Shown here piece by piece: positions 5,133 to 11,728 of a DNA stretch of 64,000 nt. This DNA comes from Shouchella patagoniensis (lineage in GTDB: Bacteria > Bacillota > Bacilli > Bacillales > Bacillaceae_D): NCBI RefSeq assembly GCF_002019705.1, contig NZ_KV917377.1, positions 4,455,085 through 4,519,084 on the forward strand, in the 5' to 3' direction. A program made the translations under genes and the position numbers. The notes under the pieces are model-generated. The model saw only the letters and a program-made list of their open reading frames with translations, made no database searches and was not told the origin of the DNA. Within the stretch, counting starts at the first letter, position 1. Every line of letters starts with the position of its first letter.

Positions 5133-5343
5133 AATAATCTCCCCTTGATGTTTGTTTTGGCGTAATGGCAAAAATAAATCAGGCCTATAATTCCATTAAC
5201 CACTATAATTCAGAAAAGCTTCAACAATCAACCCCTGAGTTAAACAGATTTTTCCTGTAATAACGGTTGAGAGAATGCAAAAAACCCGCCGTAAGCGTGT
5301 TTAAGCTTGTTTAAATGAGATAGAAAAAAAGTGAAAAGATTAT

Positions 5344-5372
5344 TTGACAACCCAATTATTGCAGCGTATAGT
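5344..5372 (+). promoter_or_regulatory. Consensus sigma-A promoter for the mph leader
   Basis: TTGACA at 5344-5349, a 17-bp spacer, then TATAGT at 5367-5372. This near-perfect promoter predicts a start near 5379, giving about 330 nt of leader before the mph start codon. Confidence 0.8.
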
Positions 5373-5400
5373 TAAAACTACTTTTTATACAGGAGGCTTT

Positions 5401-5451
5401 ATGAAAATGATTGACTCAGTCAGATTACGTTTAACCTATATGAACAACTAA
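5401..5451 (+). CDS. Leader peptide 1 with RLR stalling motif
   Basis: A 16-codon ORF, MKMIDSVRLRLTYMNN, begins 10 bases after a perfect AGGAGG at 5391-5396 and about 22 bases from the predicted transcript start. Arg-Leu-Arg at codons 8-10 is a +X+ motif; in ErmDL-type leaders such motifs are known to stall ribosomes when a macrolide sits in the exit tunnel. The codons after the motif lie in a hairpin (arms 5437-5444 and 5453-5460), so a stalled ribosome would change the fold of the leader. It is too short to be anything but regulatory. Its role in inducing the downstream mph is inferred. Confidence 0.8.
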   Translation: MKMIDSVRLRLTYMNN

Positions 5452-5544
5452 CTTCATATGTTCAAGGGCTCTGTTCTTATGCAGAGTAAACGGAATCAGT
5501 CTGTCCATTTTTATATTCTTCTACGGTTTAAACAAATGGAGAAA

Positions 5545-5568
5545 GGCGGATGAATCTGCTTTTTTTAC
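5545..5568 (+). terminator. Terminator-like hairpin 1 in the mph leader
   Basis: GCGGA and TCTGC arms (one G-U pair) are separated by TGAA and followed by TTTTTTT. It overlaps the start of the 27-codon ORF at 5550. It is short, so termination strength is uncertain. Confidence 0.5.
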
Positions 5569-5633
5569 TATATTCGGAAACTCCGAGGATTTTTTTGGTT
5601 TTTAAAGAATGGAAGACACCCGTTTACGCTTAA
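5550..5633 (+). CDS. Short leader ORF of 27 codons overlapping leader peptide 2
   Basis: The ATG at 5550 lies 8 bases after GGAG (5538-5541). It encodes a 27-residue hydrophobic peptide beginning Met-Asn-Leu-Leu-Phe-Leu-Leu-Tyr and ending Val-Tyr-Ala, with its stop at 5631-5633, one base before the terminator arm at 5635. It overlaps the RLR-containing leader 2 in another frame. Its translation could govern whether leader 2 is translated or whether the last terminator folds. It may also be chance. Confidence 0.35.
   Translation: MNLLFLLYSETPRIFLVFKEWKTPVYA
5573..5598 (+). terminator. Terminator-like hairpin 2 in the mph leader
   Basis: TCGGA AAC TCCGA forms a 5-bp stem followed by GGATTTTTTT. 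It is weak but has a clear T-tract, and is the middle of three such structures in 120 bases. Confidence 0.4.
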
Positions 5634-5656
5634 GCTACAGAGAGATAATTCTGTAG
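5609..5656 (+). CDS. Leader peptide 2 with RLR motif, fused to a terminator hairpin
   Basis: A 15-codon ORF, MEDTRLRLSYREIIL, repeats the core of leader 1 (Arg-Leu-Arg-Leu-Ser-Tyr against Arg-Leu-Arg-Leu-Thr-Tyr). The shared residues use different synonymous codons (aga/cgt, cgt/cgc, tat/tac), which suggests selection on the peptide rather than a recent DNA duplication. Its Tyr-Arg codons form the 5' arm and its stop codon ends the 3' arm of the terminator at 5635-5656. A ribosome stalled on the RLR motif would cover the 5' arm and prevent termination. The ribosome binding site is poor (AAAG only, GAGGA further upstream). Confidence 0.6.
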   Translation: MEDTRLRLSYREIIL

Positions 5657-5663
5657 TTTTTTT
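5634..5663 (+). terminator. Intrinsic terminator (attenuator) just upstream of mph
   Basis: CTACAG at 5635-5640 pairs with CTGTAG at 5651-5656 and is followed by TTTTTTTG. It lies inside leader peptide 2 and 50 bases before the mph start, the classic position for a transcription attenuator. Confidence 0.75.
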
Positions 5664-5706
5664 GTGTGTAGGAAAATGCCTGTCACAAACGAGGAGGCGA
5701 AACCAA

Positions 5707-6603
5707 TTGAATAAACAAAACGTAAAACAATTAGCAAATGAGCACGGAATTCAAATAGTTGAAACAACAATAAAATTAAATGAATCGGGACTTGATTTTC
5801 AAGTTGCACACGCAGAAGATACTACGGGACAAAAATGGATTTTACGCATTCCGAGACGTGCTGATTCGATGCGCTCAGCTGAAATCGAAAAGGCTGTACT
5901 TGATACCGTTAACAAACATGTTTCTTTTCAGTCGCCACTTTGGGTGATCTACACAAATGAACTCATCGCGTATAAACAGCTTTCTGGCGTGCCTGCGGGA
6001 ACCGTTGATCCAGAAAACCAAAACTATATATGGGAATTGGATGTTGAGAACATTCCAGATTCTTATCATAAAAGTCTTGGACACGTATTGGCTGAGCTAC
6101 ATCATGTTCCAATTAAAGATTTATCTATATCAGGGCTTACCGTTCATACAGCTGATCAAGCGAGACAATCAATGAAACAACGAATGGACCGTGTCAAACA
6201 CACATTAGGTGTAAGTGATGAGCTATGGAAAAAATGGCAAGCTTGGTTAGAAAATGAACCAATGTGGCCAAAAACAACTGGCTTAAGCCACGGAGATCTT
6301 CATCCAGGTCATGAATTGATCAATGATCAATCTGAAGTGACGGGCCTAATTGACTGGACAGAAGTTTCAGTAACCGATGTGTCGAGAGATTTTGTCACTC
6401 ACTACATGGTTGCTGGAGTGGAGGGACTTGAAAAAACAATCGCTGCTTATGAGCAAGCAGGAGGAAACACTTGGCCATTAATGAAAGAACATATCATCGA
6501 ACTCGCAGGCGCTAATGCCATAGGTGTGGCAGAGTTTGCGGCGGTTTCTGGCTTGAAGGAATACGAAGATATGGCAAAACAGATGCTAGGTGTAAGCGAA
6601 TAG
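5707..6603 (+). CDS. mph: Macrolide 2'-phosphotransferase (Mph family)
   Basis: 298-residue cytoplasmic kinase that inactivates macrolides by GTP-dependent phosphorylation of the desosamine 2'-hydroxyl. It matches Mph(B)-like enzymes throughout: Leu-Asn-Glu-Ser-Gly-Leu-Asp-Phe-Gln near the start, Trp-Ile-Leu-Arg-Ile-Pro-Arg-Arg, the catalytic loop Ser-His-Gly-Asp-Leu-His at residues 194-199, the metal-binding Leu-Ile-Asp-Trp-Thr-Glu around Asp216, and the C-terminal Lys-Glu-His-Ile-Ile-Glu-Leu. The TTG at 5707 follows GAGGAGGCG. Expression should be controlled by the leader at 5379-5706 (two RLR peptides, three hairpins). A MATE exporter follows 88 bp later. Drug range is not predictable from sequence. 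Confidence 0.92.
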   Translation: MNKQNVKQLANEHGIQIVETTIKLNESGLDFQVAHAEDTTGQKWILRIPRRADSMRSAEIEKAVLDTVNKHVSFQSPLWVIYTNELIAYKQLSGVPAGTVDPENQNYIWELDVENIPDSYHKSLGHVLAELHHVPIKDLSISGLTVHTADQARQSMKQRMDRVKHTLGVSDELWKKWQAWLENEPMWPKTTGLSHGDLHPGHELINDQSEVTGLIDWTEVSVTDVSRDFVTHYMVAGVEGLEKTIAAYEQAGGNTWPLMKEHIIELAGANAIGVAEFAAVSGLKEYEDMAKQMLGVSE

Positions 6604-6691: not shown

Positions 6692-8086
6692 ATGAATAAA
6701 AAGAATAATAGTTCAAAACTTGGAAGTGAACCAATCGGAAAGCTTCTACGTGATTTATCGATTCCGGCTATGATAGGTATGTTTGTTATGGCGCTTTACA
6801 ATGTCGTTGACGTCATTTTCATTTCCTATGGCGTAGGAATTGAGGCAGTTGCGGGGTTAACGATTGCCTTTCCAGTTATGATGATTATGATGGCGGTTTC
6901 TGCGGCAGTTGGAATTGGTGGAGCGTCTGTTATATCCAGAAGATTAGGTGAAAACCGAGAAGAAGAAGCAAACAATGTATTTGGGACCGTTATATCTTTA
7001 ATTTTACTTATTAGCGGAGCTGGAGTTATTAGTGCTTTTTTCTTCTTAGAAGATTTACTTATTCTGTTTGGAGCAACACCGGAAATTTTGCCATACTCAT
7101 ATGATTATATGTTTCCAATCATGCTCGGAACGGTTTTCTTTGCCTTTACCTTTGCGACGAATAATATCATTCGTTCAGAAGGAAATGCTCGGTTTGCGAT
7201 GGTGACAATGATCATCCCTGCCGTTGTAAATATTATTTTAGATCCAATTTTTATTTTTACTTTAGATATGGGTGTGCAAGGTGCAGGGGTTGCGACAGTT
7301 GTGGCGCAAGGCTCGATTAGCATTTATATATTACGTTATTATTTAAAAGGAAATAGCTCATTAATATTGAGCTGGACCAATGTTACGCTTAACTATTCAC
7401 TTGTGAAAGAAATTCTATCGGTAGGTTTTCCAGCATTTGTCCAACAAGCATCTGGTAGCTTAATGATGATTGCCATTAATGCGATGCTCATCCAACATGG
7501 AAGTGATTTACATGTCGGTGTCTTCGGAATAATTCAGCGGATTATGATGTTCACCGTTATGCCAATGATTGGTGTGATGCAAGGGATGATGCCGATAGTC
7601 GGATATAATTACGGGGCGAAAAACTTTGAGCGGATGAGGGAAACCATTTGGCTGACGCTGAAAGTCGTTGTACTCTGTTCAATTGGAGTCGTCTTTATTA
7701 TGATGGCGTTCCCGTCTATTTCGATGAGGATCTTTACAAATGATCCCAATGCAATAGACGCAGGAATAACCGCGATGCGCATCATGTTTGCTGGATTCTT
7801 CTTAGCAGGTGTCCAAATTGTCGCTGGAGGTTTGTACCAGGCGTTAGGTAAGCCGGTGCCGGCATTAATTTTATCATTATCAAGACAAATCATTTTTTTA
7901 ATTCCGTTAGTGTTAATTTTACCTCAGTATTTTGGTATCATTGGTGTGTTTATGGCTTTTCCAATTGCCGATGTGCTGTCATTTATTCTTTCTTCAGCAT
8001 TGTTGTATCGCGATCGCGACACGATTTTGGTGAAAGGCAAGGATGAAGAGAAAATGGTTTTAGAGAATGAAGAACAAAGCAAATAA
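6692..8086 (+). CDS. MATE-family multidrug efflux transporter
   Basis: 464-residue membrane protein with the twelve hydrophobic segments and twofold repeat of MATE (NorM/DinF superfamily) exporters, which use Na+ or H+ gradients to expel cationic drugs. Conserved pieces include Pro-Ala-Met-Ile-Gly-Met-Phe at the start of helix 1 and Gly-Tyr-Asn-Tyr-Gly-Ala-Lys in the second half. GAAGGAAGG precedes the ATG. The 88 bases between mph and this gene hold a hairpin (AATGAGGGA / TCCTCATT) without a T-run, so the two may share a transcript; a role in macrolide export is inference only. A terminator follows. Confidence 0.9.
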   Translation: MNKKNNSSKLGSEPIGKLLRDLSIPAMIGMFVMALYNVVDVIFISYGVGIEAVAGLTIAFPVMMIMMAVSAAVGIGGASVISRRLGENREEEANNVFGTVISLILLISGAGVISAFFFLEDLLILFGATPEILPYSYDYMFPIMLGTVFFAFTFATNNIIRSEGNARFAMVTMIIPAVVNIILDPIFIFTLDMGVQGAGVATVVAQGSISIYILRYYLKGNSSLILSWTNVTLNYSLVKEILSVGFPAFVQQASGSLMMIAINAMLIQHGSDLHVGVFGIIQRIMMFTVMPMIGVMQGMMPIVGYNYGAKNFERMRETIWLTLKVVVLCSIGVVFIMMAFPSISMRIFTNDPNAIDAGITAMRIMFAGFFLAGVQIVAGGLYQALGKPVPALILSLSRQIIFLIPLVLILPQYFGIIGVFMAFPIADVLSFILSSALLYRDRDTILVKGKDEEKMVLENEEQSK

Positions 8087-10084: not shown

Positions 10085-10774
10085 GTGCAAGGAGTTTGCA
10101 TACGAATTGATAAAGGAGAAGGGTTCTCTGCTGATCCACATGTTTCGTTGGTGCATGGCGAAATGATTATTGGTCGTTCTAGAGGAGAACAGGGGTATAA
10201 AACAGAGTCAGCTCTTTATTTCCCTAACCCTTATATATCTAGGCGACATGCAAGAATACAAGAGGAAGATGGGCACTACTCGATAATGGATTTAAATAGC
10301 AAACACGGGGTTAGCGTTAATGGAATGACTTTGGAAAAAAATCGGTCTTTTCCGCTGAACCATCGTGATTCAATCGAGCTCGCAAAAGGTATTATTGAAC
10401 TAACGTTTTTAAATGCAAACGAAATCAATGAGTTGACGAGAGAACTTGATTTTAGCATGATAGCATCAAGGATTCATGTGGATCGGGCAAGACGTCAAGT
10501 AACGATAGATGGCAAACGGCTCGCATTAAGTGGTAAACATATGGAATTGCTACTATGCTTATATGAAAAACGAAACCAAGCTGTGAGCTATGAAGCATTA
10601 AAGCGAATTGTCTGGTCAGAGCGACTTGCTGAAAGTGACGATGCTATCCCGGATGTGGGTAAGGAAGAGATTAATGCGTTAGTCTATCGCTTGCGGCAAA
10701 AGCTTGGTGAATACGGGAAGTGCGTTGTGACAATTCCGAGATACGGGTATATGTTAGAAATTGAAAAGAACTAG
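10085..10774 (+). CDS. FHA-domain winged-helix transcription regulator
   Basis: 229 residues with an unusual order of domains. Residues about 25-105 are a forkhead-associated domain: Ile-Ile-Gly-Arg-Ser, then Ile-Ser-Arg-Arg-His-Ala-Arg-Ile, and Leu-Asn-Ser-Lys-His-Gly-Val-Ser-Val-Asn-Gly, the phosphothreonine-binding residues. Residues about 130-229 form an OmpR-type DNA-binding domain (Leu-Ser-Gly-Lys-His-Met-Glu-Leu-Leu and the end Ile-Pro-Arg-Tyr-Gly-Tyr-Met-Leu). The FHA module thus sits where a receiver normally is, suggesting control by Ser/Thr kinase phosphorylation. The GTG at 10085 follows AAGGGGGAAACCAAC. A class D beta-lactamase follows by 138 bp; regulation of it is plausible but unproven. 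Confidence 0.88.
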   Translation: MQGVCIRIDKGEGFSADPHVSLVHGEMIIGRSRGEQGYKTESALYFPNPYISRRHARIQEEDGHYSIMDLNSKHGVSVNGMTLEKNRSFPLNHRDSIELAKGIIELTFLNANEINELTRELDFSMIASRIHVDRARRQVTIDGKRLALSGKHMELLLCLYEKRNQAVSYEALKRIVWSERLAESDDAIPDVGKEEINALVYRLRQKLGEYGKCVVTIPRYGYMLEIEKN

Positions 10775-10912: not shown

Positions 10913-11728
10913 ATGAAGAAGTTAATCATAACGGTTTTCTTAGCGGCTATTGGTACTGCTTTTTTATTTTTCCGCGAAGATCCAGAGCCAATAGAAGCAA
11001 GCAATGCGGAGAATTTATTGGAAATTGGTGAGAGTAAAGCAGCGGCAATATTGGAAGATAAAAATGCGGCTTTTGTGCTTAGTGATGTAACGCAAAGAAG
11101 GTCGTTTATATATAATAAAGATCGTGCCTATCAAAGTTTTTCGCCTCAATCGACTTTTAAAATTCTAAATGCATTAATCGGATTAGATACAGAAGTTGTT
11201 GAAGATGAATATGTAATAAAAAATTGGGATGGGGTAAAGCGTGAAATCGACGTTTGGAACCAAGACCATACTCTTGGTTCCGGTCTGAGAGATTCCGTCG
11301 TTTGGTATTACCAGGAATTAGCAAGAGAAATTGGCGAAGCAGAGATAAAAGAAGGTCTTGTTAAAGCGAATTATGGAAATAAAGACATCAGCGGGGGAAT
11401 TGATGAGTTTTGGTTAAGTAGCACTCTCCAAATATCACCAGTCGAGCAAGCTCACTTTCTAGCAGCTTTATATCGAGAAGAATTACCATTTGATGAGCAT
11501 GCGTTAAAAACGGTGAAGCGGATGATGATTGAAGAAGAGGGAGACCGTTATACTCTGTATGGAAAGACGGGTCAAGGCGATGGGATTGGTTGGTATGTTG
11601 GATTTGTTGTGAAGGGCGGCCAGACTTATAGTTTTGCTACAAACTTAGATGGTACGAGTGCAGAAGCAAAAGAAGCAACTCAACAGATCTTAAACGAATT
11701 TCAATTAGTAGAGGATCAAGATAGATAA
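10913..11728 (+). CDS. Class D (OXA-type) beta-lactamase
   Basis: 271-residue serine beta-lactamase or penicillin-recognising enzyme of the Gram-positive class D group (YbxI/BSU-1-like). All motifs are in place: Ser80-Thr-Phe-Lys (nucleophile and carboxylatable Lys), Ser-Val-Val about residue 126, Tyr-Gly-Asn about residue 155, Trp before Leu-Ser-Ser-Thr-Leu, and Lys218-Thr-Gly. An N-terminal hydrophobic segment (residues 3-19) without a lipobox Cys implies secretion or anchoring. AAAAGGGGAGT precedes the ATG. The gene upstream is an FHA/winged-helix regulator. Hydrolytic spectrum cannot be judged; some Bacillus homologues have weak activity. Confidence 0.9.
   Translation: MKKLIITVFLAAIGTAFLFFREDPEPIEASNAENLLEIGESKAAAILEDKNAAFVLSDVTQRRSFIYNKDRAYQSFSPQSTFKILNALIGLDTEVVEDEYVIKNWDGVKREIDVWNQDHTLGSGLRDSVVWYYQELAREIGEAEIKEGLVKANYGNKDISGGIDEFWLSSTLQISPVEQAHFLAALYREELPFDEHALKTVKRMMIEEEGDRYTLYGKTGQGDGIGWYVGFVVKGGQTYSFATNLDGTSAEAKEATQQILNEFQLVEDQDR

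Follow-up and report, generated by a model that had tools for sequence, protein, structure and literature searches.

The macrolide 2'-phosphotransferase gene (mph) of Shouchella patagoniensis is very probably controlled by a ribosome-mediated transcription attenuator of the ErmD/ErmK type that has one sensor, the RLR-containing peptide encoded by leader 1. This kind of attenuator is itself known, and the window adds a probable mph-controlling member to it. A second short ORF that also encodes RLR (ORF 2, or "leader 2") is, judging from the sequences compared below, most likely the conserved downstream strand of the RNA (strand 3), the partner strand of the switch. The anatomy of the region, its conservation, the complementarity of strands 2 and 3 with its covariation, and the rarity of the second RLR all emerge directly from our computations. 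Coordinates refer to the window, that is, the whole stretch of 64,000 nucleotides that was analyzed, and the features of the mph leader region are as follows:

5344-5372, forward strand: sigma-70/sigma-A type promoter, TTGACA-17-TATAGT, with 11 of 12 consensus letters; TTGACA and TATAGT are both retained in the related locus L031
5391-5396, forward strand: Shine-Dalgarno (SD) sequence AGGAGG of leader 1, -10.3 kcal/mol against the anti-SD
5407-5451, forward strand: leader 1 peptide, MIDSVRLRLTYMNN, whose RNA is strand 1; RLR at codons 6-8, with a TAA stop ending at 5451; an alternative upstream start is ATG 5401
5465-5514, forward strand: strand 2, the switch core, containing b (AGAGTAAACGG, 5483-5493) and c (AGTCTGTCCATTTTTA, 5498-5513)
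5469-5486, forward strand: hairpin H1 (CTCTG..CAGAG), kept across the leader-RNA family
5542-5563, forward strand: T1, a terminator-like hairpin with a T run, read from the sequence and folds
5573-5587 (stretch 5569-5597), forward strand: T2, a terminator-like hairpin with a T run, between T1 and strand 3; present in L031 too
5604-5642, forward strand: strand 3, the complement of strand 2, from which ORF 2 is read; its parts are c' (5604-5617), b' (CCGTTTACGCT, 5620-5630), TAAG (5631-5634), and ACAGAG (5637-5642)
5609-5656, forward strand: ORF 2 ("leader 2"), MEDTRLRLSYREIIL, probably no translated sensor
5632-5659, forward strand: T3, the last terminator, with a T run, from the terminator scan
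5707-6603, forward strand: macrolide 2'-phosphotransferase, Mph(B)/(M)/(L)-like, with a TTG start and the SD GAGGAGG (-13.6 kcal/mol)
6692-8086, forward strand: MATE family efflux transporter, predicted, possibly on the mph transcript

Much of this layout had been described in an earlier note on this DNA, and the promoter and AGGAGG site ahead of leader 1, the second RLR-coding ORF, the three terminator-like hairpins, and the overlap of the last of them with the end of ORF 2 are all present. Judged from sequence alone, intrinsic terminators lie between leader and gene; the terminator scan found three sites, T2 and T3 among them, and since shuffled sequences gave a mean of 1.8, the scan by itself is weak. 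The mph product matches the NCBIfam models Mph(B), Mph(M), and Mph(L) with E values of 6e-120 to 4e-114, under the curated cut-offs. A search of the whole window against Rfam gave no match at the gathering score, and at 12 loci searched at E values up to 1, there were nine matches, none to a family describing this leader. Between the mph promoter and a divergent lipoprotein gene lies a repeat-like stretch (5285-5318, GTTTAAGCTTGTTTAA) that is kept in L031. The surroundings also include a BPU-like class D beta-lactamase gene about 4 kb downstream (10913-11728), preceded at 10085-10774 by a gene whose product shows FHA and response-regulator-like C-terminal matches.

A scan of genome contigs yielded a single close relative of this locus, L031 of Bacillus sp. 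JCM 19041, whose mph is 82% identical to that of the window. The RLR leader of the earlier note stands, with ATG 5407 (14 codons) a likelier start than ATG 5401: the latter codon is ATA in L031, and counting from 5407 gives an SD spacing of 11, that of the family. Window and L031 are identical at 62 of 63 core positions and at 25 of 26 positions in 5607-5632, compared with 5 of 10 in the gap between T2 and ORF 2. The contrast between core and gap, as well as the good promoter and SD, speaks against a relict leader whose anatomy was inherited while mph is no longer regulated, an explanation that we regard as extremely improbable. Downstream of mph in L031 (3483-4873), the MATE gene matches in pieces in different frames, as would be seen in a draft assembly or a broken gene.

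Leader 1 is an SD-led leader of about 14 codons with a +X+ motif at codons 6-8, and it has the length, RLR register, and SD spacing common to ErmDL-type leaders. On ErmDL, telithromycin and erythromycin are reported to halt translation when codon 7 occupies the P site (PMC8298421); by analogy with this published work, we infer that ribosomes would stall on leader 1 in a drug-dependent manner. RLR has been called a hallmark of small ORFs in macrolide-sensing attenuators (PMC6310831). The same source describes the hflXr/rli80 attenuator of Listeria, which resembles the mph leader in its 14-amino-acid RLR ORF and its terminator/antiterminator switch; it serves a different gene and is likened here by ORF and switch only, although 11 members of the leader-RNA family precede HflX-family genes.

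The ErmD/ErmK attenuator of Bacillus licheniformis, through which ermK is reported to be transcriptionally attenuated (PMC4335068, PMC5418344), shares with the mph leader a 14-codon leader peptide, RLR at codons 6-8, the leader-to-core spacing, the core RNA, b', the last terminator, and control at the level of transcription. Unlike it, the mph leader precedes mph instead of erm, has the extra hairpin T2, and has a strand 3 that happens to read as an RLR ORF. In the B. licheniformis plasmid record pBL141-1 (L092), which carries a predicted ErmD gene, the leader (MTHSMRLRFPTLNQ), core, b', and T3 are all present; therefore, the RNA is that of the ermD/ermK attenuator family. The window scores 108 bits against model R1, though the window and L092 both sat in its training set. 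While the core RNA is common to an ermD leader, the window does not hold an erm(D)-class operon, as the downstream gene is Mph-like and not an Erm methyltransferase.

The likeness of the two ORFs had been taken to imply selection on the peptide. RNA complementarity explains it instead: leaders 1 and 2 are alike because both strand 1 and strand 3 have to fit strand 2, for which they compete, and peptide selection is therefore not implied by the likeness itself. Among the first 34 bases of ORF 2, 29 pair with strand 2. Within ORF 2, the duplex reaches -31.2 kcal/mol, against a mean of -17.8 (standard deviation, 3.1) for 3000 random synonymous recodings, none of which (0/3000) pairs as well. Leader 1 has no such excess of pairing, with 1346 of 3000 recodings as low; in the window it pairs with strand 2 to a modest degree, 21 of 300 shuffles doing as well. 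The strand 2:3 duplex of the window as a whole has an energy of -35.8 kcal/mol (z, -5.45), which none of 300 shuffles equals. The pairing extends along ORF 2 beyond b' as well: ATGGAAGAC of ORF 2 pairs with GUCU-UCCAU in c, b' corresponds to the codons CGT TTA CGC of ORF 2, GC and TAAG form pairs next to and within the H1 loop, and ACAGAG pairs with CUCUGU. Nucleotide pairing thus accounts for ORF 2, down to the G of CGC at 5628, whose partner in the duplex is C5482. Complementarity of this sort reveals a constraint on the RNA and, taken alone, leaves room for a further one on the peptide.

The leader RNA extends well beyond the window. Mph homologues of the same order (L021, L023, L025, and L027) have a single RLR leader, equipped with a good SD, and after it a core RNA much like that of the window; a core lies within 1000 bases at 8 of the 31 loci examined, where L001 is the window itself and L002 and L031 are one locus. 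Of the 397 genomes searched in the order, 41 contain the core pattern; a slightly looser version hits 24 of the 41 genomes searched in the family, and the reversed-pattern control hits none in either search. A covariance model built from the 63 distinct members collected up to that stage, applied with strict filters, has matches in 80 of 398 genomes of the class. In total, we gathered 147 distinct members, after removal of 4 duplicate rows and then of 4 more at merging (from 151 to 147). An SD-led leader is present in all of the first 63 distinct members (63/63), ending 30 to 38 nt ahead of the core. Over the 147 members, a regular expression recognizes an SD-led leader in 135, of which 127 have +X+; 4 of the 12 misses were inspected, and each has a leader with another SD. 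At a further hit, on an Acinetobacter plasmid (L095), the core regular expression finds none.

Directly before the last terminator, b' occurs at a score of at least 9.5 of 11 in 77 of the 147 members, compared with 4 for b read backwards and 1 or 2 for each of six shuffles. At a score of at least 8.5 of 11, the number of b' sites rises to 101; b backwards then gives 31 and the shuffles 11 to 21, so this 101-site set includes false sites, and in 46 of the 147 members, no b' is found beside the terminator at that threshold. The main counts were therefore redone on the 77 strict sites (at least 9.5). A still earlier rule (threshold of 8, loose hairpin) had found b' in 119 of 147 members versus 88 of 147 for b backwards; it was too permissive and was replaced by the stricter one. 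The two segments covary, with b/b' combinations that include AAACGG/CCGTTT, AAATGG/CCATTT, AAAGGG/CCCTTT, AATCGG/CCGATT, and GGAGCAAA/TTTGCTCC, while several divergent members have no good b' partner for their varied b. Covariation at b was judged from the covariance-model members, because the search pattern had fixed b in the first 63 and made them unusable; 33 of the 90 rows used have the consensus b, and members with an indel in b were left unscored. Across the 101 sites, the strand 2:3 duplex has a mean z of -4.69, with 90 sites at or below -2 and 3 at or above 0, values that are in part built in, b:b' pairing having been the basis on which the sites were selected. The ermD record L092 has a strand 2:3 z of -8.6. 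As a family-wide helix, c:c' was rejected, being weak outside b (mean z, -0.47; 34 of 101 sites at or below -1).

If the leader held two serial stall sensors, as the earlier note proposed, ORF 2 would also be translated and would stall the ribosome at its own RLR, keeping T3 open; we consider this unlikely. The strongest remaining argument for it comes from L031, where a GTG with the SD GAGGT (-7.4 kcal/mol) opens the frame of ORF 2 and where the peptide MED(T/N)RLRLSYR is retained, L031 being the only close relative found; there, however, the ORF ends differently, after 19 codons from ATG or 24 from GTG. In the window, the second ORF has no initiation signal of its own: ATG 5609 has an anti-SD energy of -2.7 kcal/mol, which is matched by 58% of 2000 random window positions, and the nearest SD-led start, TTG 5595 (-6.4 kcal/mol), is in a different frame without +X+. 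The codon CGC does depart from the commonest b' (CTC), creating RLR, yet the stall motif is not conserved in homologues. The triplet in the b' frame is RLL at 33, PLL at 32, RLH at 7, and RLR at 6 of the 101 sites, with others at 23, and for the 77 strict sites the counts are 32 RLL, 25 PLL, and 6 RLR. The six RLR sites are those of the window, JCM 19041, L124, L125, L128, and L130, the last four from one genus and with a GTG start lacking an SD, while the second leader copy in the window's own genome (L116) has RLLN at that place. Translation across b' is possible in places, given an in-frame ATG at 32 and an SD-led start at 10 of the 101 sites, but RLR together with an in-frame ATG occurs at two sites only, those of the window and JCM 19041. 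Among homologues, +X+ is kept in leader 1 (127 of 135 recognized leaders), and RLR is rare at the ORF 2 site (6 of 77 strict sites).

The attractive two-sensor reading is thus corrected here as probably wrong. What survives of the earlier interpretation is a macrolide-type RLR leader, intrinsic terminators, and the logic of transcription attenuation before mph, without a second stall sensor. More generally, a leader may seem to encode several stall peptides because an attenuator's competing RNA strands resemble one another by design. The claim that a serial two-leader arrangement is undescribed was also too wide, since two-leader macrolide regions have been published for ermA, ermD, and ermB (PMC8274638; for ermD also PMC6333372), and msrD is reported to lie under two leaders (PMC10314930). 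Like the mph leader, the ermA, ermB, and ermD regions have two short ORFs before one macrolide resistance gene, and their second ORFs are reported as leader peptides, with stalling on both stated for ermA; the second ORF of the mph leader differs in lacking an SD and conservation. ErmDL2 was considered as a homologue of ORF 2 and rejected: the short ORF of the ermD record L092, presumably ErmDL2, sits just before ermD and not at b'.

For the one-sensor attenuator that we favor, the following course of events may be envisaged. In the absence of drug, leader 1 would be read fast or would stay paired with strand 2, and T3, along with T1 and T2, would stop transcription. In the presence of a macrolide, the ribosome would stall at R6-L7-R8 of leader 1, covering strand 1 and freeing strand 2. 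The emerging strand 3 could then zip onto strand 2 and hold the 5' arm of T3, so that the polymerase would continue into mph, and we expect such read-through to take place in vivo. In the tlrB and vmlR attenuators of B. subtilis, a drug-induced stall on a short ORF is likewise reported to relieve termination (PMC6851288, PMC9226507). A further likeness is the RYR used by tlrB. Both attenuators differ from the mph leader in that their leaders are other ones and in that SD-sequestering hairpins and NusG pausing are documented for them. The tlrB, vmlR, and cplR leaders are reported to combine transcriptional and translational control (PMC6851288, PMC9226507, PMC10201436), and the mph leader might accordingly act mainly on translation, governing access to the mph SD instead of termination. 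This seems very unlikely to us, as the mph SD (about 5690) is located downstream of T3 and is not part of the strand 2:3 helix, the T run of T3 is a good one, and terminators recur across the leader-RNA family.

Folding of the family members bears on the proposed switch. In the consensus structure of 63 cores, the leader SD region and the RL codons pair with strand 2, and 7 of the 28 pairs are changed on both sides. The folding sets of 77, 64, 78, and 63 sites consist of members within a length limit whose leader, with +X+, was recognized by the regular expression; for the 64-site set, a terminator was required too. When 77 members are folded free up to the terminator, leader:c pairing forms in 72 and b:b' in 3; under a mask imitating the stalled ribosome, b:b' forms in 64 and T3 falls from 67 to 42. 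With the RNA stopped before the 3' arm of T3, strand 2 captures the 5' arm in 71 of 78 folds with a stalled ribosome versus 23 of 78 free ones, and on strict sites in 60 of 63 versus 17 of 63. The window itself has 9 of the 11 nt of this arm held when stalled and 0 when free. In the ermD record L092, 8 nt of the arm are held, free and stalled alike, which counts against a full account. Since T3 can coexist with b:b' in the window at equilibrium, antitermination at T3 would have to be kinetic, a mode that these folding models support.

The upstream hairpins fit this scheme less readily. The best of the terminators lying between core and b' (mostly T1, but T2 in the window) is present in 44 of 64 stalled folds versus 59 of 64 free ones. 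A role for c as the antiterminator of T1 was rejected, as c pairs with the 5' arm of the upstream terminator in just 15 of 64 members (T2 being the one measured for the window). In folds of the window, T1 and T2 persist inside the strand 2:3 loop, and the one-sensor model leaves the passage of the polymerase through them unaccounted for; our guess is that they are weak terminators or pause hairpins.

What deserves following is that a single RNA module stands before many resistance genes. When the first long ORFs downstream of the 147 members are clustered, they comprise 46 mph, 36 ABC-F, 21 Erm, 14 Mef-type MFS, 12 RlmA-like, 11 HflX, and 3 Lmr(B)-like genes, besides 2 singletons; 2 members have no such ORF. 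These families were named from ten representatives, several of them under the NCBIfam cut-offs, and HflX is assigned at the family level only. It is likely, in our judgment, that one macrolide-sensing leader RNA forms an exchangeable cassette that has been repeatedly placed before at least six unrelated resistance-linked families across Bacilli (mph, Msr ABC-F, Erm, Mef-type, RlmA-like, and HflX), and that in multi-copy genomes a single stall signal might induce an entire resistance regulon. One common RNA would thereby link the ErmD/ErmK switch with mph, ABC-F, Mef-type, RlmA-like, and HflX genes, which predicts macrolide-inducible resistance regulons in many Bacilli. In the genome of the window, the second leader copy, L116 (contig C1, 3420516-3420650; leader MISGRLRNVALNNR), lies ahead of an Msr-type ABC-F gene. 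Two relatives from the same genus (G003 and G005) have one leader ahead of an ABC-F gene (L042 and L044), with mph downstream on the same strand.

A rapidly built leader tree requires 38 changes of gene family, where the least possible number is 6 and the shuffled mean is 83, and the well supported branches alone force 9 changes for mph and 7 for ABC-F; the tree rests on 131 columns for 147 rows, and 82 of its 142 inner branches are weak. Given these changes, the leader RNA seems to have switched genes repeatedly, although the alignment is short and ancient duplication is the alternative. In titles and the beginnings of abstracts from the open-licence literature, an attenuator before mph, or one common to several gene families, was not found among the matches listed, which is weak evidence of absence. 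For B. halodurans, erm and mphB are reported to form a presumed operon, in a text that does not use the word leader (PMC9927578). The mef(E) leader and the ermK regulatory region are stated to have the peptide in common, yet homology between the two is not discernible (PMC4335068).

Variant forms of the leader were also seen. Ahead of ABC-F genes in one genus, a compact form (L124-L128, L130-L132, L136, and L137) has b' 67 to 68 nt after b and an AGGTGG-type SD, with no separate T1 in three stretches (L124, L126, and L136). The leaders of L003, L073, L109, and L138 (MLPRIWFRALNK, MPSRRLWIRALNK, MTHSITLRFPTLNQ, and MTLRFQTLNQ) keep the conserved RNA and lack +X+, and they possibly differ in drug specificity. 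At L049 (468-1297), group II intron RNA hits adjoin the mef-type locus, suggesting a mobile neighborhood.
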